A stretch of DNA of 64,000 bases, from positions 7,855,577 to 7,919,576 of the forward strand of contig NZ_LN831776.1 in the NCBI RefSeq assembly GCF_000981585.1, given 5' to 3'. The translations under genes were made by a program, and so were the position numbers. Numbering within the stretch: the stretch's first letter is position 1; each line of letters starts with the position of its first letter. The DNA is from Paenibacillus riograndensis SBR5 (GTDB taxonomy: Bacteria; Bacillota; Bacilli; Paenibacillales; Paenibacillaceae). Below are positions 1 to 10,520 of this stretch, piece by piece. The notes beneath the pieces were generated by a model. It ran no database searches, was not told the DNA's origin, and saw nothing but the letters and a program-made list of their open reading frames with translations.

Positions 1-526
1 ACCAATGGCCGTGGCGAAAGTCAATCGAGCTTGGCTCTACCGTTCGCTCCAGGTATTCCATATCCCTGTTGATATAGTCGAACACCAGCAGCCTGTTTTC
101 CGTGATGGCCTTGTTTATGATCCCAATGTACTCTTTAATTTCCTGCTCCATGCTGAAATGGGACATATCCAGAGTCAGTTTGTCCTTATTCGACTCCCGC
201 TTATAGGTATGTTCAACCTTTAACATGATGTCATTAAAAGCTTCGTTCCTGCCAAAATAGCAGTGTAAATTCTTCATTACAGCTACAAACGTATGAGCCT
301 CATCCCGGTTTAAAAAGAGGCTGCTTATATTATAGCTGTCCATAATATAGTATCCTCCGCCCTTGCCGCTGGACGATGCAACCGGTATGCCGGCTTCGCT
401 TATTTTTTCGATATCCCGGTAGATCGTCCGCAAGGATACCTCGAAATGCTCGGCAAGCTCCTTGCCCGTTACCGCACCTTTACCGGAGATGATCAGCAGC
501 ATGGAGAGCAATCGATCGACTCGCAT
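1..526 (-). CDS. YafY/DeoR-type HTH + WYL transcriptional regulator (partial, runs off the left edge)
   Basis: Reading from the ATG at 526, 175 codons are open to the window edge. The N-terminus (MRVDRLLSMLLIIS, then KELAEHFEVSLRTIYRDIEKI) is the winged-helix HTH of the YafY/DeoR group. It is followed by a GGGYYI turn and the start of a WYL-type sensor region (NRLLVFDYINRD). Such proteins bind DNA and often sense nucleic-acid or metabolite ligands; the target here is unknown. A GAGGAGG sequence lies about 24 bases upstream of the ATG, which is rather far. The gene sits outside the outermost rlmH-like att repeat (909), so it belongs to a further accessory segment or to older chromosome. The C-terminal half is not visible. 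Confidence 0.85.
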   Translation of the reverse strand, partial: MRVDRLLSMLLIISGKGAVTGKELAEHFEVSLRTIYRDIEKISEAGIPVASSSGKGGGYYIMDSYNISSLFLNRDEAHTFVAVMKNLHCYFGRNEAFNDIMLKVEHTYKRESNKDKLTLDMSHFSMEQEIKEYIGIINKAITENRLLVFDYINRDMEYLERTVEPSSIDFRHGHW

Positions 527-1000
527 GATTGTGTGTGACGTTGGATAACGTCTCCTCCTCTGGGTGGAATTTATTTTTGATACTACATATTTGCGAAACA
601 CCTTATCAATTACCTTTTCAGACATATTCGTCTGAGTGATCACTTTCTCCTTCATAAGCCCCTCCCGGCGAATATATAAATCCCCCTTGCAAAGCTCTGA
701 GCCGGATTATGCGCTGCCAGCCTGCGCTAACTTTGAGCACCGTCTTCAGGGTCAGATCCTAAGCACGTTTGGAAGAAATCTACGTTCAGATCAGACTCAA
801 AACTTAGTTCAGGTGCAATGTTGTTGGCATAAAATCACATGGAAAAACCCCGTGCAGGTGAAACCCACAAGGGATTAGTACTCTCTTTATATCTTTGAAA
901 GTTTCGTGCTACTTATGATACGGCTCATCGCGCTGTCTGTAACGGCAAGTTTAAGAACCATCCTTTGCAGGATGGCTCTTTCAGCAAATCAATGTATTTC
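527..1000. other. Intergenic stretch holding the outermost rlmH-type att copy
   Basis: No convincing gene is seen. The only recognisable element is the att-like repeat at 909-926 with its flanking GGCAAGTT arm at 944-951. A short dyad with arms CCATCC and GGATGG lies at about 958-976, just downstream of the VOC gene's stop, and may be a weak terminator for it. Confidence 0.5.
909..926 (-). repeat. att-like copy 1 of the rlmH 3' end
   Basis: On the minus strand this reads GAGCCGTATCATAAGTAG, which encodes E-P-Y-H-K-stop and matches the last codons of rlmH (8095-8112) at 16 of 18 bases. Beyond it the bases GACAGCGCG and a GGCAAGTT arm (plus strand 944-951) match the same positions next to copy 3 (4325). 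Established knowledge: SCC elements use the 3' end of rlmH as attB and duplicate it at each cassette boundary. I infer that this is a cassette-boundary site. Confidence 0.75.
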
Positions 1001-1420
1001 TTAGGCATTCTCCGGCGTAATGGGGTTAACTGCAAAAAGGGAATGAATGTTGCCTTCTGGATCTGCAAAGAAGCCCGTGGTGTGCCCCCAGGACGTCACC
1101 TTCGGCGCTGTTATCCCTGTAGCCCCTTTTGAAACAAAATCATCATACATAACATAGACATCCTCAGGAGAATCACATTCGAAGTTAAGCTCAAAAGCTT
1201 GCCCTCTACGCTCTTCTACAAAAGAATGGTGGCCGTTTGTGTTATCTGCCATTAAGGGTGCCGCGAAAATGGCCAGACGAACGCCATCATTCTCAAATTC
1301 AGTGTAATGTTCTTCTTCAATTAGAACCTTAAATCCCAGGGCATCCCGGTAAAATCTAGTCAATCTAGGAACATCAAGCGCCAAAACAGTGATTCCTTCT
1401 AATTTTACTCCCATGCCCAT
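1001..1420 (-). CDS. VOC-superfamily (glyoxalase/bleomycin-resistance-like) protein
   Basis: A 139-residue protein with one vicinal-oxygen-chelate fold unit. The N-terminal strand is GITVLALDVPRLTRFYRDALGF and the C-terminal strand is TGFFADPEGNIHSLF, the usual paired beta-alpha-beta-beta-beta modules. A conserved Glu (LNFECDSPEDV) could be a metal ligand. The substrate cannot be told; family members include lyases, dioxygenases and drug-binding proteins. GGAGGGG lies about 7 bases before the ATG at 1420, which supports this start over the second Met. It is the only intact gene in the segment between att copies 1 and 2. Confidence 0.85.
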   Translation of the reverse strand: MGMGVKLEGITVLALDVPRLTRFYRDALGFKVLIEEEHYTEFENDGVRLAIFAAPLMADNTNGHHSFVEERRGQAFELNFECDSPEDVYVMYDDFVSKGATGITAPKVTSWGHTTGFFADPEGNIHSLFAVNPITPENA

Positions 1421-1536
1421 ACCTGCACCCCTCCAACATCAAATTCTGTACTCATCGGATATCATTTCTATGAAATATTATATATCATCCCCATCCGCTC
1501 TTACATATTAAAATATACAAAGTATTCCTCAACCGG

Positions 1537-1555
1537 TACGGTTCTCCGTGCTGTC
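1537..1555 (-). repeat. Decayed att-like copy (cassette-end side only)
   Basis: The plus strand reads TACGGTTCTCCGTGCTGTC. This matches 17 of 19 bases of the corresponding stretch at copy 3 (4336-4354, TACGGTTCCCCGCGCTGTC). On the minus strand it still encodes G-E-P-Y, but the following H-K-stop is lost (R-L-R instead). I read it as the remnant of a fifth boundary whose other half was deleted. Confidence 0.5.
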
Positions 1556-1608
1556 CAATCTCCTTCCGGAATTGAATTCCTCCAGAATCATTTTTGATAC
1601 CTGCCGGC

Positions 1609-1845
1609 TTAACGGGGGGCAATTTTAATAGAATAGATCGTTCCTTTAGAGGTGAACAACGCAGTCACGTCTGGAGAACCCTCTTTTGTGAAGGTTAATG
1701 TATCAAACCGTGATACAAGTTTGAATACGTTATAATCAGCCAAGTCCAAATTCAGTTTTCTCATGAATCATGTCCAGCTCAATCGCTTTTGTTTTCTCAA
1801 CTAAATCATGATATTTATTTTTATCATCCAATTGATTAAGTTAAT
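1609..1845 (-). pseudogene. Frameshifted C-terminal remnant of an unrecognised protein
   Basis: Two minus-strand frames join into one protein-like tail. The first contains KNKYHDLVEKTKAIELDMIHEK. After a shift near 1760 the second continues KLNLDLADYNVFKLVSRF and ends FTSKGTIYSIKIAPR-stop at 1609. An in-frame stop near 1845 marks the truncated 5' end. The second frame alone has an ATG at 1764 (51 residues) but no ribosome-binding site. The composition (alternating hydrophobic strands) looks coding, but I do not recognise the family. Confidence 0.4.
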
Positions 1846-1978
1846 CCGACAGCGGAAAAGCTACAACCCTTGTGATCTGAATAAAGTTGTTAAATATTCA
1901 TTGACATTACGCCTCTAAACAGGCTGCCGAACGGCAGCCTTCAAATTCTTAATAACTATAAAGTCATAAAATACATTT

Positions 1979-2311
1979 TCACTTTGTAACGTGAAATATT
2001 TTCGTGCGAATAACATCGACCGCAGCCTTAGGGTCTGCTCTGGTCTCCGTTCTCCAACAATCAAGCAGCAGGCTGGAAAGCGGGGCTGGAACTTGTGCCC
2101 TTTGCGCCGCCAACAGCAAGAGGCCGACATCTTTCTGCGGAATTTTACTTTCGGATATGGATGACTTCTCGGCTATCATTTTGCCATAGTTTTGATAAAT
2201 TGGAGCGGTAAACAGTATGCTGGTAAGCATATTGACCGCTGCTGTGGGGTCAACCCCGCCGCGCTCAGCTATTCCTAGTGCTTCTTCCAGTGAGCGTGCC
2301 TTCCCGCTCGC
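1979..2311 (-). pseudogene. C-terminal fragment of a 3-hydroxyisobutyrate-dehydrogenase-like NAD(P) oxidoreductase
   Basis: The open frame runs from about 2311 to the stop at 1979 and has no usable start near its 5' end. Its residues (ARSLEEALGIAERGGVDP, then NMLTSILFTAPIYQNYG, then KDVGLLLLAAQRAQVPAPLS) match the all-helical C-terminal domain of the 6PGDH/HIBADH superfamily, including the Lys-Asp of the KD motif. The N-terminal Rossmann domain is absent. The fragment directly abuts and partly overlaps, in another frame, a MerR N-terminal stub, so the junction near 2300 looks like a recombination scar. An internal ATG at 2230 could allow a short product, but function is unlikely. Confidence 0.65.
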
Positions 2312-2396
2312 CTAAAGGAAGCAATCCGATGCTCTTGTAATAGCGAACCGTGCGCTGTGTTACCCCTGCCCGTTCTGTCAAATCGCCAATGCGCAT
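2265..2396 (-). pseudogene. MerR-family N-terminal HTH stub
   Basis: From the ATG at 2396 the frame reads MRIGDLTERAGVTQRTVRYY then KSIGLLP, the classic MerR winged-helix start. It then runs out of homology and stops at 2265 after 43 residues. The dimerisation helix and effector domain are missing and are replaced by the tail of an unrelated dehydrogenase. A normal MerR protein is 110-280 residues long. The upstream AAGGAG is about 17 bases from the ATG. Confidence 0.7.
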
Positions 2397-2433
2397 GCGG
2401 GTGATGATGTATCACTCCTTCCAAGATATCAAC

Positions 2434-2449
2434 ATGACGTTAACGTCAT
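2434..2449. promoter_or_regulatory. 16-bp perfect palindrome, probable MerR operator
   Basis: ATGACGTTAACGTCAT is a perfect palindrome about 40 bases upstream of the MerR stub. GACGTTAACGTC-type dyads between -35 and -10 are typical MerR-family operators, so this is probably the autoregulatory site left behind by the truncated regulator. Confidence 0.55.
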
Positions 2450-2501
2450 TTTTGCATGATAGCATTTGGATTGGTAAATGTAAAGGCACCTGAACTTCGC
2501 C

Positions 2502-2519
2502 CTACTTATGGTACGGTTC
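2502..2519 (-). repeat. att-like copy 2 of the rlmH 3' end
   Basis: The minus strand reads GAACCGTACCATAAGTAG, which is E-P-Y-H-K-stop with a synonymous TAC for Tyr; 16 of 18 bases match rlmH. On the cassette-start side GGGCGAAGTT resembles the GGGGCAAGTT found at copy 3. The other flank differs from copies 1 and 3 and holds a probable amidohydrolase tail. Confidence 0.65.
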
Positions 2520-2581
2520 AGCTTAACGGATCTATCGGCGAAATTGCTAAAGGAGCTGCCGCCGACATCTCCTTGTTTTAA
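2513..2581 (+). pseudogene. Possible amidohydrolase C-terminal tail
   Basis: The plus-strand codons give NGSIGEIAKGAAADISLF-stop, very like the C-terminal signature of amidohydrolase-superfamily enzymes (G-S-I-G-x-I-x-x-G-x-x-A-D-x-x-L-F). The fragment is only about 22 residues long and begins inside att copy 2. A rearrangement may therefore have cut the gene at the site. The match is short and could be chance. Confidence 0.35.
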
Positions 2582-2602
2582 TTCGATCTGGTGTGCGTAT
2601 TG

Positions 2603-2895
2603 TCATTTTCTGACCTGTTTACCCACTGGAATACTCTGAGCAAAATGAAACACATTATGAGGATCGTACTTTCGTTTCACCTGTTTCAATCTGCCAAAGT
2701 TCTCGTCATAATACGCCTTGGGCCAGTTCTTAATATGCAGATCGGGAAAATTCACATAATCACCTTTAACAAAGGGACTCAACGCTCTACGAAACCTTTC
2801 TACCCACTGTATATTCCGCTCCTGCTCCCTGTTGTTTCTCCACCGGGCTGACAGTTCGTAGATTGTCTCAGCCTTCCGATGGGGATAGGCCGTTT
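2603..2895 (-). pseudogene. C-terminal BBE-domain fragment of a FAD-linked (berberine-bridge-like) oxidoreductase
   Basis: The minus-strand frame ends at 2603 and runs about 97 residues back to an in-frame stop near 2895. It contains AYPHRKAETIYELSARW, YVNFPDLHIKNWPKAYY, DENFGRLKQVKRKYDPHNVF and HFAQSIP. These are the hallmarks of the BBE domain that closes the C-terminus of FAD-linked oxidases (usually about 450 residues). The FAD-binding N-terminal three quarters is absent and no start codon or Shine-Dalgarno sequence is present, so this is a truncated remnant. Confidence 0.75.
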
Positions 2896-3017
2896 AATCA
2901 CGTTTTTGCGCCAAGCGGTTGAAATTTCCGCAAGAAAAAAAAGGGCGCCAGCGAAGTTAACCCGGAAGGCGAGAGTACGGAGACGAAATGGTTATTTTTA
3001 TTCCTGCTTAAATCAAC

Positions 3018-3023
3018 TATAAT
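3018..3023 (+). promoter_or_regulatory. Probable -10 box for the PAP2 gene
   Basis: A consensus TATAAT hexamer lies 39 bases before the GTG start of the PAP2 phosphatase. The -35 region is AT-rich with no good TTGACA, so the call rests on the -10 alone. Confidence 0.4.
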
Positions 3024-3062
3024 GGGGGATAGCTTTATCATTCGTTGGAAGAAGGTTGAGAA

Positions 3063-3728
3063 GTGTCGCTACGCAATTGGAAATATACACCGCTGCTGTT
3101 GATGCTGATTTTCCCGGTGCTCGGGAAGATGTATGCATGGGTCAACAAGCCGAGAGGCAAAGTCTATCATTTGATGACCTCATGGGATAACGCCATCCCT
3201 TTCGTCAAATATTTTGCACTGCCTTATTCCGTTTGGATCTTTTATATTTATCTATGTCTTTACTATTTCTTCAAGAACGATTTGCGTGTGTATTACCGTG
3301 CTTTGTTGATTTATACCGTATGCGCCTGCATTTGTTACGGAATTTACTCTGTAGTTCAAACAACGGTGCCACGCCCCGAGTTGGTGGGCCATGACGTCTT
3401 TACCTTGATCGTGCGTTTTGTGTACCACCGGGACCAGCCGTTCAATTGTTTCCCCAGTATCCATGTGTTCTCCAGCTACATGGTGTTCCGCCTAACCGCC
3501 AGCAGCGGCTTCCGGAACAAATGGAACATGCTCCTGATCGGGGGGATGTCCGGGATGATTATATTGTCCACGCTGTTCATCAAGCAGCATGCGATTCTCG
3601 ACGGGCTTGCCGGTATTATGCTGGTTGAAATTGTATTGGCCGCCGTTCTGCTGGTGGAGCACTTCTTCACCCGCAGCAGCAGCACTCCCCAAGAGCGTTC
3701 TTACAAAGATAGGCCTCAAAGCTCCTGA
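3063..3728 (+). CDS. PAP2-family membrane phosphatase
   Basis: 221 residues with about five or six hydrophobic helices. The PAP2 catalytic motifs are present in reduced form: PSIH (131-134) is motif 2 with its His, and KQHAILD (174-180) is motif 3 with His and Asp. Motif 1 (KxxxxxxRP) is not clear in its usual place; RGKVYHLMTS near residue 31 and TVPRP near 101 are the nearest. Members dephosphorylate lipid phosphates such as phosphatidate or undecaprenyl pyrophosphate at the membrane outer face. Start GTG 3063 has GAAGG about 7 bases upstream. It is the only intact gene in the segment between att copies 2 and 3. Confidence 0.85.
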   Translation: MSLRNWKYTPLLLMLIFPVLGKMYAWVNKPRGKVYHLMTSWDNAIPFVKYFALPYSVWIFYIYLCLYYFFKNDLRVYYRALLIYTVCACICYGIYSVVQTTVPRPELVGHDVFTLIVRFVYHRDQPFNCFPSIHVFSSYMVFRLTASSGFRNKWNMLLIGGMSGMIILSTLFIKQHAILDGLAGIMLVEIVLAAVLLVEHFFTRSSSTPQERSYKDRPQSS

Positions 3729-3829
3729 AGCTCCTTCCGCAGATAAACGAAGGGGGCTTGTGATCACCAGGGCAGAAGTGCGTTAACTGATTCGTTCTAA
3801 TCACCCTTGGGTAACCGGACCAAACTCCG

Positions 3830-3912
3830 ATGCAATCGCTGGTTCAAGGCTACATCCATGCGTATAAAACGGGTGGTCTTTCTGCTTGGCAAATGAATTA
3901 TTCACCAGGTGC
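3830..3912 (+). mobile_element. Possible IS630-type transposase N-terminal remnant
   Basis: The frame beginning ATG 3830 reads MQSLVQGYIHAYKTGGLSAW then QMNYSPG, which resembles the helix-turn-helix entry of IS630-family transposases (YxxAYxxxGLxxL...SPG). After this point the similarity ends and no DDE region or terminal repeats are seen. The call rests on about 28 residues and is tentative. Confidence 0.3.
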
Positions 3913-4026
3913 GCTTTTCTTTTTCAACTTTTGTGCCATATACGTTACGCCAATGAAAGGGAGTTTAATGAAATTACCGTAGGTAAAGGCATCATATTCA
4001 TGAACGGAACGGCGAACCGCCTTGGG

Positions 4027-4280
4027 TCACCGTTCCTTAATCATCCCCTGAACCTCCAGCACCTGCTCTGCCGTCGCCCAATCCCGCAGCAATTCGAAGA
4101 GCGCCGATTGCCCTCATCCTCATATGTACCGAATTCAGCTGTCTGCTCCGCAAACGTCTCCAGCAACTCTTCCACATTCAGTCCATGCCGCAGCGCGGCA
4201 CGCAGAATTGTATCCAGCCCCGGTAGCACTTCTTCAGGATTCTCCCGCAAAAGCTCTCCTATACTCATGTTGCTCAACAT
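4027..4280 (-). pseudogene. Frameshifted small helical protein, family not recognised
   Basis: From ATG 4280 the frame reads MLSNMSIGELLRENPEEVLP, then GLDTILRAALRHGLNVEELL, then ETFAEQTAEFGTYEDEGN, and goes out of frame near 4105. The neighbouring frame continues naturally with ALFELLRDWATAEQVLEVQG then MIKER-stop at 4027. A one- or two-base indel therefore broke an amphipathic helical protein of about 84 residues. No Shine-Dalgarno sequence precedes the ATG, so the 5' end may be truncated too. It lies just inside att copy 3. Confidence 0.5.
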
Positions 4281-4324
4281 GTTTTAATAGGCTTTTTCAA
4301 GCTTCTAATTTAAAAAACTTGCCC

Positions 4325-4342
4325 CTACTTATGATACGGTTC
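4325..4342 (-). repeat. att-like copy 3 of the rlmH 3' end
   Basis: The minus strand reads GAACCGTATCATAAGTAG, 17 of 18 bases identical to rlmH 8095-8112, including E-P-Y-H-K and the same TAG stop. Identity extends into GGGGCAAGTTTTTT on one side (rlmH: GAGGCAAGTTTTTT). On the other side a GACAGCGCG block and a GGCAAGTT arm (4360-4367) match copy 1. This is the clearest boundary between two cassettes. Confidence 0.85.
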
Positions 4343-4381
4343 CCCGCGCTGTCTGTAACGGCAAGTTAAAAGGCCATCTCT

Positions 4382-4861
4382 TTATTGGATGGCCGCATGC
4401 ATCGCTTCCGCGATAGTAAAGAAATCTTCTTGGTTTATCTCAAAGTGGCCGGTACGGAACGGGTAGCCCCAATTCCGTTTGCCGCGGGTGAAGGACAGCC
4501 GATCAAGCAAGCCTTCGATTCTTGCTTCATGGCAGGGGACATATTCGATATTCCGCCGGTAAGGTACGAACGTCGCGGACATCGCATATTCGTACACATG
4601 GTCGTCCAAAACCCGGCCAATGGCGGTGAATGCTTGCAACGGCTCGCCGTCTCCTATCTCCGTTCGAGGAGAATAGTACACAAGCCAATCCCCAGGTTGC
4701 ATTCTGCGTAATGGTGCAGATTTACCGTGACACATTTGGGCGAAGCCGCCACTAACCCCGCGTTGTACATGCGATGCCGAGACGACGCCTATCCAATAGG
4801 AAGACGGATGGAGAACCGTGACCGTTTCCTCAAAATTACACAACGTTTCTTTCGTATTCAT
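4382..4861 (-). CDS. EVE-domain protein
   Basis: 159 residues with an EVE (PUA-like) fold. After a short lead come [21 protein letters not shown], a [12 protein letters not shown] core strand and [13 protein letters not shown] domains bind modified bases in DNA or RNA and are often found near restriction or toxin modules. The ligand of this one is unknown and no nuclease is fused. AAAAAGGAG about 12 bases upstream supports ATG 4861. It is the first gene inside the far end of the rlmH-proximal cassette and is transcribed out towards att copy 3. Confidence 0.85.
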
Positions 4862-4906
4862 TGCTGAACCCAGCTCCTTTTTCTTACGCTGAATCCAGCA
4901 TACAAC

Positions 4907-4951
4907 AACGCTACTGACAGCGGTTTGTCAGTAGCGTTCGAGCATTTTTTT
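4907..4951 (+). terminator. Strong hairpin with T-run
   Basis: Perfect 13-bp arms (AACGCTACTGACA and its complement, 4907-4919 and 4926-4938) enclose a 6-base loop. A run of seven T follows at 4945-4951 on the plus strand. The right arm contains the stop codon of the small minus-strand ORF at 4928. It could also act as a binding dyad upstream of the EVE gene. Confidence 0.6.
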
Positions 4952-5065
4952 GATATCCTGAACCCGGTCCGCAATGGCTTGGTATACCAACATGCGGGCC
5001 GTCACATTCCGATCGTCTATAGATCCGGCAACCGTCACTAACCCAACACCAGGCATAGTGATCAT
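4928..5065 (-). CDS. Short ORF of unknown function
   Basis: 45 codons from ATG 5065 (or ATG 5056). The product is MITMPGVGLVTVAGSIDDRN then VTARMLVYQAIADRVQDIKK then MLERY. It reads like the C-terminal piece of a larger protein ending in an amphipathic helix. There is no Shine-Dalgarno sequence, and its stop codon lies in the arm of the 4907 hairpin. It may be a remnant rather than an expressed gene. I do not recognise the family. Confidence 0.3.
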   Translation of the reverse strand: MITMPGVGLVTVAGSIDDRNVTARMLVYQAIADRVQDIKKMLERY

Positions 5066-5068
5066 TAA

Positions 5069-5097
5069 TTGATTTTAGTCTAATCAGACTATATAAT
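5069..5097 (+). promoter_or_regulatory. Sigma-A-type promoter for the SASA esterase
   Basis: TTGATT at 5069-5074 and TATAAT at 5092-5097 are separated by 17 bases. A second TATAAT follows at 5111-5116. The spacer holds the dyad AGTCTAATCAGACT, and TAGTCTA recurs just downstream, so a repressor may act here. Confidence 0.6.
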
Positions 5098-5141
5098 GAT
5101 TCAATTAGTCTATAATAGTTATGTAAAGGAATGAAGATTAA

Positions 5142-5984
5142 ATGATAAAATCATTTTTAATGTTGGGTCAATCTAATATGGCAGGCCGTGGATTTTTGCA
5201 TGAAGTCGACCCTATATATCATGAAAAAATAAAAATGCTGCGTAATGGACAGTGGCAGATGATGACAGAGCCGATTAATTATGACCGTCCGGTTTCCGGT
5301 GTAAGCCTGGCGGCGTCTTTCGCCGATGCCTGGTCGAAAGCCAATTCTGATGAAGAAATTGGTTTGATTCCTTGTGCAGAAGGTGGCAGTTCTTTGAATG
5401 ATTGGCATCCGGAGGGCATCCTTTTTCAGCATGCTTTGTCCGAAGCTCGCTTCGCCTTGCGGTCCAGTCAAATCTGCGGAATTCTTTGGCACCAGGGTGA
5501 GAGCGACAGTTATCATTCGCTGCATGAAACTTATTACGAGAAATTAACCCTTATCATCGAGACCCTAAGAAACGAATTGAATCTTGATGAGGTGCCGTTG
5601 ATCATTGGCGGACTTGGTGATTTCCTTGGGAAGACTGGTTTTGGACAGCAAGCGACAGAGTATAGACAGGTCAATGAACAATTGCAGCGCTTCGCTAACG
5701 AACAGCAAAATTGTTATTTTGTAACGGCGGCAGAGTTGACCGCGAATCCTGATGGCATTCATATAAACGCGGTTTCGCAACGCAAATTCGGCTACCGCTA
5801 TTTCGAAGCTTTTTCGAACAAGTGTCATGTCCTGGAGCCCCTCCCGGGGGAGGAGCAGTCGCTGAAAGTGGAGCGCGACTATTCGAAAACAGAACAGATA
5901 TACCTTCATAGCATGGATTTGGCTTTGGGTAAAATCACTTACGCGGAATTCGAGGCGCAGATGGTGAAGGTTATGCAGCCTTGA
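5142..5984 (+). CDS. SASA-type (sialate O-acetylesterase-like) SGNH esterase
   Basis: 280 residues. The three diagnostic blocks of the SASA/CE6 group are intact: GQSNMAG (9-15, nucleophile Ser11), WHQGESD (116-122) and DGIH (204-207, the Asp-His of the triad). The fold is an SGNH hydrolase that removes acetyl groups from sugars. There is no signal peptide, so a cytoplasmic carbohydrate or xylan oligomer substrate is likelier than sialic acid. AAAGGA lies about 11 bases before ATG 5142. The gene stands alone within the rlmH-proximal cassette. Confidence 0.85.
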   Translation: MIKSFLMLGQSNMAGRGFLHEVDPIYHEKIKMLRNGQWQMMTEPINYDRPVSGVSLAASFADAWSKANSDEEIGLIPCAEGGSSLNDWHPEGILFQHALSEARFALRSSQICGILWHQGESDSYHSLHETYYEKLTLIIETLRNELNLDEVPLIIGGLGDFLGKTGFGQQATEYRQVNEQLQRFANEQQNCYFVTAAELTANPDGIHINAVSQRKFGYRYFEAFSNKCHVLEPLPGEEQSLKVERDYSKTEQIYLHSMDLALGKITYAEFEAQMVKVMQP

Positions 5985-5989
5985 TCCCT

Positions 5990-6184
5990 TTACTCATTCT
6001 TGGCATACTTGTCCAAAACCCCGGCCCGATCTTCCATTAATTCATACTTCTCGGTCGAATATTGCTTTTCACGCAGACCTTCCTCTATATCTGTCAGAAT
6101 CCTTTCGTGATTCTCGGAACGCCTGAGATACATACAAACAGGGCTCCCTGCGTAACACACTGCGAATGATTGGCTATTTTCAGC
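5990..6184 (-). pseudogene. Open remnant of an unrecognised protein
   Basis: A minus-strand frame without stops runs from about 6184 to the stop at 5990. It reads AENSQSFAVCYAGSPVCMYL, then RRSENHERILTDIEEGLREK, then QYSTEKYELMEDRAGVLDKY and a short end. An ATG at 6133 would give 47 residues, but no Shine-Dalgarno sequence is seen and the upstream residues look coding. It is probably a C-terminal fragment; the family is unknown. Confidence 0.35.
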
Positions 6185-6282
6185 CTAAAACTTGCCTTAT
6201 TTGCCTTTGTGCTCCGTCCGACGTTCAAATATGATAAGGTTGGAGGGATTTACGGAAATCGTGAATAAAGGAGGCATCAGTA

Positions 6283-7137
6283 ATGGACAATCATCATACC
6301 TCCTCCGCATTGGGGGAATTCATCAAATCACGCCGCTATCGACTGCAGCCTGAAGAGGCGGGGATTAAGCCATTCCCTGGCCGCAGGCGCACCCCTGGAC
6401 TTCGCAGGGAAGAAGTCGCATTTCTCGCCAATGTTAGTGTTACCTACTATACCTGGCTAGAGCAGGGCCGTGAGAGAAATCCATCCCCAGAGGTTTTATC
6501 CCATATCAGCCAAGCGCTACAACTGGATGAGGACGAGCGGAAGCATTTATTCAACCTGGCTGCGCCGGAACCAGCCAATTCATATACAGCGCCGAAACCG
6601 GAACCACACAATACCGAATTTCTGCAAAACCTTGTAAATCAATTGCGTTATCCTTCCTTCATTGCAAATGAAGTTGCGGACGTGATCGTTTGGAATCAGG
6701 GAGCAAAGCTTGTTATCACCGATTTTGGCCGTCTGCCGGAAAAAGAACGAAACATGGCAACCCTGCTGTTTCTGGACCCGGAATACCCCAAAAGGCTGAT
6801 AAATTGGGAGGAATTCGCCCGTTACATGACGGGCCTGATTCGGGCAAGCTTCGACCAGAACAAAGAGAACCCGATGTTCATGAATCGATTCGACCGTTTG
6901 AAGAACAGCGAGGAATTCTTGCGTTTGTGGGAATGGCATGAAATTCGGCACAAAACTACCGCCGTCCCGGTACAATGCCGCCTTGCGGACGGACCGGAGC
7001 TGGCGTTCACTATCCATTGCGCCGCAGCGATCGACAACGATCCCGGGCTGCACTGGTGCTTTTTCGTTCCAATGCCTGGTTCTGGCACAGAAGAGAAGCT
7101 CTCCCTTCTGCTGTCCCAAGCCGCTGAGTTGTCCTAG
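6283..7137 (+). CDS. XRE-family regulator with MmyB-type ligand domain
   Basis: 284 residues. Residues about 8-85 form the XRE-type HTH (LGEFIKSRRYRL, TPGLRREEVAFLANVSVTYY, TWLEQGRERNPSPEVLSHIS). The rest is the PAS-like MmyB ligand-binding domain (NEVADVIVWNQGAK, RHKTTAVPVQCR) thought to bind fatty acids or similar. AAAGGAGG sits 8 bases before the ATG. Genes of this class very often control an adjacent short-chain dehydrogenase, and one follows 95 bases downstream behind a large inverted repeat, so it is probably the repressor of that gene. Confidence 0.9.
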   Translation: MDNHHTSSALGEFIKSRRYRLQPEEAGIKPFPGRRRTPGLRREEVAFLANVSVTYYTWLEQGRERNPSPEVLSHISQALQLDEDERKHLFNLAAPEPANSYTAPKPEPHNTEFLQNLVNQLRYPSFIANEVADVIVWNQGAKLVITDFGRLPEKERNMATLLFLDPEYPKRLINWEEFARYMTGLIRASFDQNKENPMFMNRFDRLKNSEEFLRLWEWHEIRHKTTAVPVQCRLADGPELAFTIHCAAAIDNDPGLHWCFFVPMPGSGTEEKLSLLLSQAAELS

Positions 7138-7179
7138 CCTGTTAGTCCTGTTAATAGTATAGAGACACTGTGGTTAACG

Positions 7180-7224
7180 CCCCTTTATCGTTGATATAAT
7201 CAACAAAACTCAACGTTAAAGGGG
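7180..7224 (+). promoter_or_regulatory. 15-bp inverted repeat overlapping the SDR promoter, probable operator
   Basis: Arms 7180-7194 (CCCCTTTATCGTTGA) and 7210-7224 (TCAACGTTAAAGGGG) are complementary at 14 of 15 bases. The TATAAT -10 box (7195-7200) lies between them. The right arm also carries the AAAGGGG Shine-Dalgarno sequence of the SDR gene. This placement suits repression by the MmyB-type regulator just upstream. Confidence 0.6.
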
Positions 7225-7232
7225 ATTCTTAT

Positions 7233-8030
7233 ATGAACTCATATCACTATCTTGGCAAAGTCGCTTTGATCACTGGCGCTTCCTCTGGAATTGGCGAAGT
7301 GTATGCCAAAGAACTGGCAGCGCGAGGCTGCCACGTCATTTTGACGGCACGCTCCAAAGATAAGCTGGAGGCGTTGGCCAGTGAAATTACACGCACGCAC
7401 GGCGTGCAGGCATATGCCCTTCCCATCGACTTGTCCAAGGCAGAGGCCCCGCGTCTACTAGCGAAATCGATCTCTGAACTCGGCGTTACAGTTGATATTC
7501 TTATCAATAACGCAGGATTTGGCACAACTGGCCGGTTTGAGGATATAAACCCGGAGCGCGAGCAGGAACAGATTATGCTGAATACCGCTGCGCTTGTCGA
7601 ACTGACACATCTTTTCCTGCCGGGCATGCTGGGACGTAAAGACGGGGTCGTTGTAAATGTGGCTTCAATGGCTGCGTTTGCACCTTGTGCCTATTTGGCC
7701 GTTTACGGGGCTACCAAGGCATTCGTATTATCCTTCTCCGAAGCACTGTGGGCGGAAACCCGCGAACGCGGTGTTCGTGTACTGGCCCTATGCCCGGGTG
7801 CGACTGATACTGGATTTTTCGATGCAGTTGGCAGCCGGGATATGGTGGAGAACAACACACTGTCCACACCAGAAAAAGTCGTCCAAGCCGGATTTCGCGG
7901 AGTCGACCGAAACAGCGGCTACATCATTGACGGGCGCATCAACTATATGACGACCCTGATTTGCCGTATTCTTCCGCGGCGCAGCTTAGCTTTAATCAAT
8001 GAACGCAATTCGCGCCCCAAAGCACAATGA
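7233..8030 (+). CDS. Short-chain dehydrogenase/reductase (SDR)
   Basis: 265 residues of the classical SDR family. Cofactor motif TGASSGIG is at 14-21, NNAG at 92-95, and the catalytic residues are Ser145 (VNVASMAAF), Tyr158 and Lys162 (YGATK). Arg40 after the second strand suggests NADP(H). C-terminal residues such as GRINYMTTLICRILPRRSL resemble the membrane-associated YqjQ/DltE-like subgroup. The substrate is unknown. AAAGGGG lies 8 bases before ATG 7233. It ends 65 bases before the rlmH stop, so it is the cassette gene nearest the putative attB. Confidence 0.9.
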   Translation: MNSYHYLGKVALITGASSGIGEVYAKELAARGCHVILTARSKDKLEALASEITRTHGVQAYALPIDLSKAEAPRLLAKSISELGVTVDILINNAGFGTTGRFEDINPEREQEQIMLNTAALVELTHLFLPGMLGRKDGVVVNVASMAAFAPCAYLAVYGATKAFVLSFSEALWAETRERGVRVLALCPGATDTGFFDAVGSRDMVENNTLSTPEKVVQAGFRGVDRNSGYIIDGRINYMTTLICRILPRRSLALINERNSRPKAQ

Positions 8031-8085
8031 TGGTTTACAGACGCTCGAGCGAAGTTATCTACACGTATCCTAATTAGTTCAAAAA

Positions 8086-8112
8086 AACTTGCCTCTATTT
8101 ATGATACGGTTC
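8086..8112 (-). repeat. rlmH 3'-end att site and cassette inner end
   Basis: The minus strand reads GAACCGTATCATAAATAG (8095-8112), the last codons and stop of rlmH, then AGGCAAGTT (8086-8094). This is the reference copy for repeats at 4325, 2502 and 909. The AACTTGCC (plus strand 8086-8093) is the inverted counterpart of GGCAAGTT at 4360-4367, so the 3.8-kb segment has inverted ends as SCC elements do. Confidence 0.8.
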
Positions 8113-8574
8113 CCCCCGATTGATCTTCACTGCACGATAAATCTGCTCGGTGAGCACCAGGCGCATGAGCTGGTGGGGCAGCGTCATGCGCCCGAAGCTC
8201 ATGCGCTGCTGGGCGCGGCGCATAACGTCATCGGAGAGCCCGTGGCTCCCTCCGATGACGAAGACGACATGGCTCGTCCCGTAGGTGCCGAGCCGGTCGA
8301 GCTCTGCGGCAAGCTCTTCCGAGCTCCAGAGCTTGCCGTCGATCGCGAGCGCAATGACATGCGCCTCGCTCTTAATGTGCGCGAGGATGCGTTCGCCCTC
8401 GCGCACCTTCACCTGAACAACCTCTGCCTCGCTGAGGTTGTCCGGTGCTTTCTCATCCGCCACCTCAATCATCTGAAATTTGAGGTAAGGCGTCAGCCGT
8501 TTGGCGTATTCTGCGATGCCGAGCGTCAAATATTTCTCCTTTAGTTTGCCTACGCTAATGATTTGAATGAACAT
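8095..8574 (-). CDS. rlmH: 23S rRNA (pseudouridine1915-N3)-methyltransferase RlmH
   Basis: 159 residues, the normal family length. This SPOUT methyltransferase methylates pseudouridine 1915 in helix 69 of 23S rRNA on the assembled ribosome. Visible signatures are [14 protein letters not shown], the SAM-binding knot region [13 protein letters not shown], and the C-terminal [20 protein letters not shown] followed by RGEPYHK-stop. In staphylococci this same 3' end is the insertion site of SCC elements. Here, repeats of it lie downstream at 4325, 2502 and 909, and the coding frame and stop are kept at the junction, so the enzyme should be unaffected. Confidence 0.97.
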
Positions 8575-9557: not shown

Positions 9558-10520
9558 TCTTAGATATAGCTTGGCGATTTCGATCATGTCGGCTTTGCTG
9601 AGATATTGTCCGCTCATGTCGTCAATCTGATATTGATAAAGTTCTGTACTGCCCGGAACCTCAGCAGTCCAGACTATAGAATTTCCGCCTTTATATTTGG
9701 TATATATCATTTCTACCCCATCTACAACCACTTTTTCCGAGGTGAAATCGACTTTTTCATCTACGTATGCTGTAAACTCACCTTTGGATTTGACAATAGT
9801 CACAGCTATTTCATTCTTCCCTTGAGCGTAGACCGTTCTAATATTGAGAAGCTCATTGGATAACTCCACAGGCATCATTGCATATTCCTGCTTGGATGCC
9901 TCAGCCTGCTTGCGGAGCTTCTCTGCCGTAGCAGCCTCTTCTTCCGGAGTAGGCGGATTCACCATATTAACCGGTTTAAAGAATACCCTGGCGCTTTTGA
10001 AGGCATAGTTGCCTGTTAAGCTGTCTGCAATGACAACGGGCTGGCTGGACAGTTTGCTGCGGAGTACAGAGAGGTCGGTAAACGTCACCGGCTTAAACCG
10101 GGTGTCCATTTGCCTGTTGGGATTATGGGCAACGACATAAAAAACAGCTGCGGAACCCTCCTGTAGCAGTTTATCCCCTAAGTCACGGCTGATTTTCCAA
10201 CGTTGTAATTCTTCTTCCTGAGGAACAGAAGCTTCCTTGGCAGGCTTGACCTGATAAGTAACTTCCCCCTGTTTGTTCTTCAAGGATTGATATTGAACCG
10301 CCGCAAAACCCGAGGATGCTGTCAGCAGCATTCCCGCTATGACCATCACGCTGACCTTATATTTCACCAGGAATCGCTCCTTTCCGCTCTGTCCGGCATA
10401 CAACCTCTTCATCACTTTTCCGGACAAGTCTGTCTCACTGAACTGCGGGCTACGAAGAAGTTCCTTCAAATCCTGATCCTTGTCGAATCTCACAGCTTCC
10501 TTCTCCTTTCGCATAAGCAT
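9555..10520 (-). CDS. Membrane partner (probable anti-sigma factor) of the upstream ECF sigma factor
   Basis: About 321 residues from ATG 10520 (ATG 10514 equally possible; GGAGG lies 4 or 10 bases away). A cytoplasmic N-terminus of about 55 residues precedes one membrane helix (VSVMVIAGMLLTASSGFAAV). An extracytoplasmic domain follows, ending ADMIEIAKLYLR, with an acidic coiled segment EEEAATAEKLRKQAEASKQE. The layout is that of membrane anti-sigma factors with a DUF4367-like outer domain, but no zinc HxxxCxxC motif is seen. The start overlaps the 3' end of the sigma gene by about 70 bases, implying coupled translation. Confidence 0.7.
   Translation of the reverse strand: MLMRKEKEAVRFDKDQDLKELLRSPQFSETDLSGKVMKRLYAGQSGKERFLVKYKVSVMVIAGMLLTASSGFAAVQYQSLKNKQGEVTYQVKPAKEASVPQEEELQRWKISRDLGDKLLQEGSAAVFYVVAHNPNRQMDTRFKPVTFTDLSVLRSKLSSQPVVIADSLTGNYAFKSARVFFKPVNMVNPPTPEEEAATAEKLRKQAEASKQEYAMMPVELSNELLNIRTVYAQGKNEIAVTIVKSKGEFTAYVDEKVDFTSEKVVVDGVEMIYTKYKGGNSIVWTAEVPGSTELYQYQIDDMSGQYLSKADMIEIAKLYLR

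Follow-up and report, generated by a model that had tools for sequence, protein, structure and literature searches.

The window analysed here, 64,000 nucleotides forming the final 64 kb of the 7.92-Mb single-contig genome of Paenibacillus riograndensis SBR5 (window start at genome position 7855577), raises the question of why the last codons of one gene, rlmH, recur several times in the DNA behind it. A preliminary description had read these repeats as the boundaries of tandem mobile cassettes that target rlmH outside the staphylococci, in the manner of the staphylococcal cassette chromosome (SCC). Four lines of evidence support that reading: copies across the genus share one orientation, homology between genomes ends at them, one cassette is near-identical in two species at different array positions, and relatives have Ccr-type recombinases at the corresponding place. 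We consider it highly probable that the window contains the rlmH-proximal end of an array of SCC-like, recombinase-less cassettes, and that Ccr proteins supplied in trans explain the array as a whole.

Copies of the rlmH end in genome, genus and order

The target gene rlmH (8095..8574, minus strand) encodes a SPOUT methyltransferase of 159 aa ending in E-P-Y-H-K-stop (Pfam SPOUT_MTase, 193.6 bits), and its protein is 100% identical to RlmH of Paenibacillus jilunlii. The last 18 bp of the gene, GAACCGTATCATAAATAG (8095..8112; attachment-site (att) copy 0, 0 mismatches), recur on the same minus strand as copy 1, GAACCGTATCATAAGTAG (4325..4342; 1 mismatch to the rlmH end), copy 2, GAACCGTACCATAAGTAG (2502..2519; 2 mismatches), and copy 3, GAGCCGTATCATAAGTAG (909..926; 2 mismatches), confirming the four positions first described. 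With up to three mismatches allowed, the window holds 4 matches against 0.04 expected, a count reached in 0 of 100 shuffles. Copy spacings of 3,770, 1,823 and 1,593 bp agree with the three tandem cassettes of ~3.8, 1.8 and 1.6 kb proposed earlier. The further cassette predicted past the left window edge is borne out by the next copies, which begin at genome position 7853826 and continue at 7845231, 7834904, 7833270 and 7810665; all five lie on the minus strand and encode E-P-Y-H-K-stop. The array behind rlmH comprises nine copies over 53 kb, every one in the rlmH orientation and reading E-P-Y-H-K-stop, plus a decayed copy with 3 mismatches at genome position 7789200. The likeness exceeds 18 bp: in distal copies the core is flanked by a common left arm (consensus AAATTTGCCGNTANAGACGTTACGGT) and a common right arm (GGGCAAATTTT).

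Genome-wide, a two-mismatch pattern was unspecific (16 matches versus 13 for the reversed control), and the exact coding pattern was therefore used in its place; it yielded 13 matches (9 reverse, 4 forward), with 0 for the reversed control. Four E-P-Y-H-K-stop 18-mers lie at a distance from rlmH, at genome positions 332763 and 335458 (plus strand), 3323652 and 4102884. The one at 335458 has a complete left arm, and those at 332763 and 3323652 follow a short rlmH-like tail; all four may be secondary sites or displaced array pieces.

Across 100 congeneric genomes, the motif occurred 648 times against 6 for the reversed control, a whole-genome count that includes some matches away from rlmH. Every genome (100 of 100) carried it, with at least two copies in 95, at least five in 54, at least ten in 26 and a maximum of 18. 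A slightly looser pattern matched 238 of 246 sampled genomes of the order and 250 of 299 of the class; outside the order, counts were mostly one to three and reached eight, with five to eight copies in G320, G400, G565, G577 and other class members. In 80 named rlmH loci, extra copies were all downstream of the gene and in its orientation, with none upstream, and the motif stood at the rlmH end itself in 77 (the exceptions being L121, L126 and L131). Extending the set to 130 rlmH loci (2.02 Mb), from which the duplicates L060 (taken to be G030), L063, L124 and L138 had been removed, gave 269 copies forward and 0 reverse, with at least two copies in 79 loci. These copies enclose 143 closed units with a median length of 3.5 kb (range 0.18–22.6 kb). 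Pieces and relatives of the target gene also occur elsewhere: rlmH 3'-end fragments lie away from the intact gene in G007, G023, G050, G060 and G097, at least the one in G007 ending in an att copy, and a second RlmH-like reading frame (36–39% identity) is present in G020, G093 and G099; in G020 it lies close to the array, in G093 elsewhere.

Cassette boundaries and a proposed point of exchange

Comparison between genomes placed the ends of homology at these copies. Of 10,604 ordered pairs, 10,339 had a BLAST match containing rlmH that ended within 40 bp of the rlmH copy; at ≥97% identity the figure was 44 of 48. These tests rest on non-independent pairs. At copies other than the rlmH end, homology broke at 53 distinct positions against 10.0 expected (sd 3.5; maximum of 500 draws, 23). 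Four pairs of units matched end to end with att on both sides. Ten matches were of the empty/occupied type, with a segment that adjoins rlmH in the first genome found beyond an outer copy in the second. The clearest of these ten is a unit of 6,836 bp that forms the second cassette in G030 (P. jilunlii) and the first in G093: 6,834 of 6,836 bp aligned at 99.98% identity, with both ends at att to the base, unlike neighbours and different array positions, whereas 450 bp of rlmH are 89.1% identical between the two genomes. No large serine recombinase was found in the G030 or G093 locus, and by eye the open reading frames (ORFs) of the unit look like a two-component system and ABC transporters. One of the four end-to-end pairs, a whole-cassette match between L107 and L108, was set aside as uninformative about transfer, their rlmH ends being identical.

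The two nearest relatives examined, G052 and G030, have rlmH genes 97.4 and 97.5% identical to that of the window, and in both the match stops at the rlmH copy. No match of at least 200 bp to the window genome's array appeared before ~21.5 kb (G052) or ~30.6 kb (G030) past rlmH, so the window's own cassettes are lineage-specific. These relatives do not, then, share all the cargo in the same order, an outcome that would have told against mobility: the array stretch holding all window cassettes is unmatched in both. At the level of genome comparison, the copies are demonstrably the boundaries of units that differ between species, move as units and lie in a single orientation behind rlmH.

The same boundaries carry a symmetry that points to a crossover site. 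When a circular attP was modelled by script, joining the right end of each unit to its left end, complementarity about the GA that opens the GAACCG core was 0.504, compared with at most 0.298 at 32 shifted axes. Arms matched better within a cassette than between cassettes (0.504 versus 0.473; sd 0.005, maximum of 300, 0.491), and at least 9 of 13 arm positions were complementary in 81 of 143 cassettes, compared with at most 3 when the left arm was shuffled. This axis, derived from sequence alone, coincides with the GA that the available text of PMC10581047 (citing Misiura 2013) reports as the central dinucleotide for staphylococcal CcrAB; in the window, the proposed exchange point is the GA at 8112-8111. 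Given symmetry about GA, the P-Y-H-K-stop to its right would be derived from the cassette, and insertion should replace the last codons of rlmH.

The rlmH tail behaves as such replacement predicts. Between the members of 44 close rlmH pairs, tail codons for E, Y, H and K differed in 47 of 176 cases (27%), as against 67 of 1,451 (5%) for the same codons upstream. Among one-mismatch copies, collected without assuming the code, 30 of 37 still read EPYHK-stop, where 8/54 would be expected; one of the seven non-silent rows (L121) is an rlmH copy rather than a distal one and was kept in. With up to three mismatches, 128 of 166 copies read EPYHK-stop, and the reverse strand gave 2 matches. The tail residues Y152, H153 and R154 of Escherichia coli RlmH are catalytically essential according to the accessible part of PMC5430550, which offers a reason for the silent variation of the copies. 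Each new cassette seems to rewrite the last few letters of rlmH.

Recombinases, a proposed mechanism and competing accounts

Which enzyme could have built the array? In named relatives, large serine recombinases with Resolvase, Recombinase and zinc-ribbon domains lie behind rlmH. Eight such proteins from 6 loci matched the NCBIfam CcrB model at 245–431 bits, with abutting or overlapping pairs in L109 (Paenibacillus sp. OK003) and L114 (P. rhizophilus); recombinases behind rlmH scored 364–431 bits and the second partners of pairs 245–250. Across the genus, 19 of 100 genomes had a CcrB-model match at E ≤ 1e-60, 0 of 100 a match over the 900-bit equivalog cut-off, and 14 control genomes had none. 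Matches above 360 bits numbered 17 in 13 of the 100 genomes; 14 of them lay within 38.3 kb downstream of rlmH, and 12 of these 14 point at the gene. A scan of the 130 loci, with seeds taken from the same loci, found a recombinase-like ORF in 21 (at least 400 aa in 13 of them); 32 of the 33 ORFs are directed towards rlmH. Locus L109 also encodes RadC and a Cch1-type helicase (210 bits; DUF927 and Cch HTH_56 domains) that matches PDB 5dgk, which we take to be the SCCmec Cch, at 2.9e-41. At E ≤ 1e-30, Cch was found in 3 of 100 genus genomes, in two of them downstream of rlmH, and no Cch helicase was found in the window's genome. One genome, G017, departs from the others compared: upstream of rlmH it has both a high-scoring CcrB-type recombinase and an att copy (genome positions 7005791 and 7002161). 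The preliminary description had proposed looking for Ccr-like recombinases beyond the left window edge; Ccr-type matches lie at the corresponding place in relatives, and none was found in the window's own array or genome.

Other candidates in the window's genome did not fit. It has three serine recombinase matches, the nearest at 197 kb and the others at 936 kb and 2.83 Mb, and the two full-length ones were rejected as the responsible enzymes, scoring only 148 and 81 bits with CcrB. A prophage-like tyrosine integrase was likewise rejected as the cause, none of the six tyrosine recombinase matches in the genome being near the array or rlmH. As for vehicles, a narrow att pattern had 0 matches in viral contigs, and phage recombinases, among the matches listed, were 26.9–31.1% identical to the L109 protein. 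A search for transfer plasmids returned 8 plasmid records, all below 60% identity; the best-covered Paenibacillus match was at 38% and staphylococcal ones at 47% over 70%.

With no recombinase in or near the array and no Ccr-type enzyme in the genome, we infer mobilisation in trans. A visiting cassette of this family that bears ccr would supply a Ccr-type large serine recombinase pair, which would exchange strands at the GA beginning the GAACCG core. The circular cassette would carry an attP in the form of an inverted repeat around GA, with arms AAATTTGCC and GGCAAATTT and with PYHK-stop in its right half, and on integration at rlmH its copy would replace the gene's last codons. Older cassettes would be displaced outward, and every joint would keep an att copy. 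Since RlmH needs the tail for catalysis, a cassette would be tolerated only if its tail worked, and this would account for the mainly silent variation among copies. Once the ccr-bearing unit left or decayed, a ccr-less array such as that of the window would remain. That cassettes are mobilised in trans, that the array grows outward and that tail replacement underlies the silent variation are all inferences.

Several observations weigh against this scheme. The evidence is wholly comparative, and the pairs compared are non-independent. No recombinase was found in or near the window's array, nor a Ccr-type recombinase in its genome by CcrB profile search. All Ccr-type matches fall below the 900-bit NCBIfam equivalog cut-off, and 3 of the 17 strong ones are not downstream of rlmH on the same contig. 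Of 143 modelled junctions, 62, including those of window cassettes 2 and 3, fall below the 9-of-13 arm criterion, and 38 of 166 near copies (up to three mismatches) encode something other than EPYHK-stop. Some genes in the window cassettes are broken, and some joints there are mosaic. Finally, in P. terrae PIC167 and P. barcinonensis CECT 7022 (L126 and L131), rlmH ends in GAACCGTATCGCTTTTAA / GAACCGTATCGCCTTTAA, encoding E-P-Y-R-F-stop (locus ~10462-10480), and is abutted by a serine recombinase of 691–702 aa, an ill fit with a strict need for YHK.

Some of these points suit a different history, in which a few large ccr-bearing islands were cut down by deletion between att copies and the small cassettes, as eroded SCC remnants, were never self-mobile. 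We regard this account as possible but on the doubtful side. It would accommodate the broken genes and decayed att copy, the loss of all ccr, the 62 of 143 junctions below the arm criterion, and the indels, at or near att copies, that distinguish the versions of a duplicated array block of 98–99% identity. Erosion is harder to reconcile with the 6.8-kb unit that moved between species without a large serine recombinase and with both ends exact, with the matched arms kept in 81 of 143 units, or with the higher arm match within cassettes (0.504 versus 0.473), although kinship among the cassettes of one genome could contribute to the last.

Homologous recombination of taken-up Paenibacillus DNA, through rlmH and shared cassettes and with the att copies passive, appears improbable. 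Natural transformation is one SCC route reported in the literature available in part to us, and modules such as the SASA esterase and the SDR–MmyB pair are common to the arrays of several species. However, passive copies would not lead one to expect a G030/G093 cassette ending exactly at copies in different positions and among unlike neighbours, 53 rather than 10 breakpoints at copies, or 0 of 269 copies reversed. Less credible still is a different integrase, either a tyrosine recombinase or a prophage-type serine integrase, that used the rlmH end to build the array. The 691–702-aa serine recombinases abutting the changed-tail rlmH of L126 and L131 and the six tyrosine recombinase matches of the genome lend it some substance, but none of those six is near the array, recombinases behind rlmH score 364–431 bits with CcrB against 148 and 81 for the genome's other large serine recombinases, and the symmetry axis is the Ccr dinucleotide. 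Chance or a coding repeat, with the copies being unrelated matches, is a negligible prospect at 4 seen versus 0.04 expected in the window and 648 versus 6 in the genus.

Cargo, precedents and meaning

The individual cassettes, to which no strand is assigned, can be taken in turn. Cassette 1 (4341..8110; 3,770 bp from the GA of copy 0 to the GA of copy 1) has 10 of 13 scored arm positions complementary, its right (P') arm of GGCAAGTT type (8082..8094, minus strand) facing the left (P) arm AACTTGCCGTTACAGACAGCGCGGG (4343..4367, minus strand), an inverted repeat of 8082-8094. It carries genes for a short-chain dehydrogenase (SDR; 7233..8030, plus strand; Pfam adh_short) with relatives in rlmH arrays of other species, an MmyB-like HTH transcription regulator (6283..7137, plus strand; MLTR_LBD), a SASA-type carbohydrate esterase (5142..5984, plus strand; SASA) and, adjoining the cassette end, an EVE-domain protein (4382..4861, minus strand; EVE). 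Cassette 2 (2518..4340; 1,823 bp; 8 of 13 arm positions complementary) holds a PAP2-like phosphatase gene (3063..3728, plus strand; match below the Pfam cut-off) and a left arm of another type, AATTTCGCCGATAGATCCGTTAAGCT (2520..2546, minus strand). Cassette 3 (925..2517; 1,593 bp; 8 of 13) encodes a glyoxalase/dioxygenase-fold protein (1001..1420, minus strand; Glyoxalase) and has the left arm AAACTTGCCGTTACAGACAGCGCGAT at copy 3 (927..952, minus strand). A portion of the next cassette, with an HTH_11 and WYL regulator (2..655, minus strand), is cut by the window edge; the cassette itself ends at the copy at genome position 7853826.

Cargo genes of cassette 1 recur elsewhere. The SASA esterase protein is 93.6–98.2% identical to proteins in the rlmH-downstream regions of 5 other loci; the EVE gene and its cassette end are also in G026, stopping at the GA of that genome's att copy; and relatives of the SDR and MmyB-regulator genes lie side by side within the arrays of G093, G070 and L110. 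As judged from these matches, the window cassettes' cargo is drawn from a shared pool. Within the array itself, the segments at genome positions 7843111-7847487 and 7854192-7860399 (the latter reaching window position 4823) are duplicates, mostly at 98–99% identity, that differ by inserts at or near the att copies at 4325 and 2502, as gain or loss of cassettes in one of the two might produce. Cargo was sampled by family searches of 10 window ORFs, 10 left of the window and 10 from ccr-bearing or related loci; among the last ten, 6 match some defence model and 4 none. Downstream of rlmH in L078, L106, L114 and L130, units near recombinase genes hold defence-like genes with DndB-, TIR-, DNA-methylase-, helicase-, RmrA- and DUF262-like (Orf5/SspE) matches. 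No phage or conjugation genes were named among the Pfam matches seen in sampled inserts, no phage or conjugation library having been run.

Chromosomal integrons offer one comparison, being likewise tandem, same-orientation cassettes at one anchored site that mostly lack their own recombinase. Integrons, however, are defined by an integron integrase and attC sites, whereas the arrays described here have neither and consist of multi-gene, kilobase units with serine-recombinase-type sites. Closer is SCC of Staphylococcus, Mammaliicoccus and Macrococcus (SCCmec, composite and pseudo-SCC). It too is inserted at the final rlmH codons, has direct repeats accompanied by inverted repeats and a central GA, and exists in tandem (composite) and ccr-less (pseudo-SCC) forms; ccr-bearing Paenibacillus relatives add probable Ccr-type recombinase pairs and, in some, a candidate Cch-like helicase to the likeness. 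Unlike SCC, the Paenibacillus arrays lack mec, their Ccr proteins score far under the CcrA/B/C equivalog cut-offs, copies occur in almost every sampled genome with up to 18 motif copies per genome and a median closed unit of 3.5 kb, and the cargo in the window consists of dehydrogenases, regulators, an esterase and an EVE protein. By analogy, the window array works like a ccr-less (pseudo-) SCC composite; it lacks the ccr feature and is therefore not filed as SCC proper, and the wider genus set is best called a divergent SCC-like family.

There is precedent for parts of this picture. A ccr-less SCCmec with imperfect internal att sites is described in the available portion of PMC8407400. The Enterococcus cassette chromosome (ECC; PMC6222049, available in part) shares with the Paenibacillus arrays the rlmH 3' end, ccrAB, a TATCATAA core and multiple att sites (several attR sites in 16 of 32 elements), and its circular form was shown; unlike those arrays, it is reported as large (mean 42 ORFs), not near-universal (69 of 516 E. 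faecium genomes) and with fewer att hits (<5 per genome). A primase study (PMC10061031) is a direct precedent: the Pol-SSB/LSR islands that it reports behind rlmH in Bacillota include one in Paenibacillus pinistramenti that has two large serine recombinases and is said to look like tandem islands with several rlmH-end repeats; the accessible text of that study gives this one Paenibacillus example and contains no array survey, ccr-less cassettes, exchange point or rlmH-tail replacement. Other genera are listed in the part of PMC10581047 at hand. Cassettes that target rlmH are already in print for Enterococcus, Bacillus and one Paenibacillus species, and a survey of Paenibacillus arrays was not found in the open-licence literature searched, outside which most subscription papers lie. 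Apparently new are the near-universal, order-wide arrays of mostly recombinase-less cassettes.

We lean, by a little, towards a broader proposal in which Paenibacillales maintain a standing, integron-like platform based on SCC-type recombination: an open-ended array of mostly non-autonomous cassettes behind rlmH that would be fed in trans by occasional members carrying ccr and shared between species, each insertion overwriting the catalytic tail of RlmH with the cassette's own copy, so that the gene end would serve as both attachment site and quality control. The prediction of a functional RlmH tail carried and exchanged by cassettes is directly testable. The arrays are long enough for insertion history to be read from them, and they provide a non-pathogenic setting in which to ask by what means ccr-less SCC cassettes move, why SCC targets rlmH and how it spares that gene from harm. 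SCC is familiar chiefly for carrying methicillin resistance; in Paenibacillus, its site and its type of recombinase look like an ordinary means of gene sharing across a large soil genus and its order.

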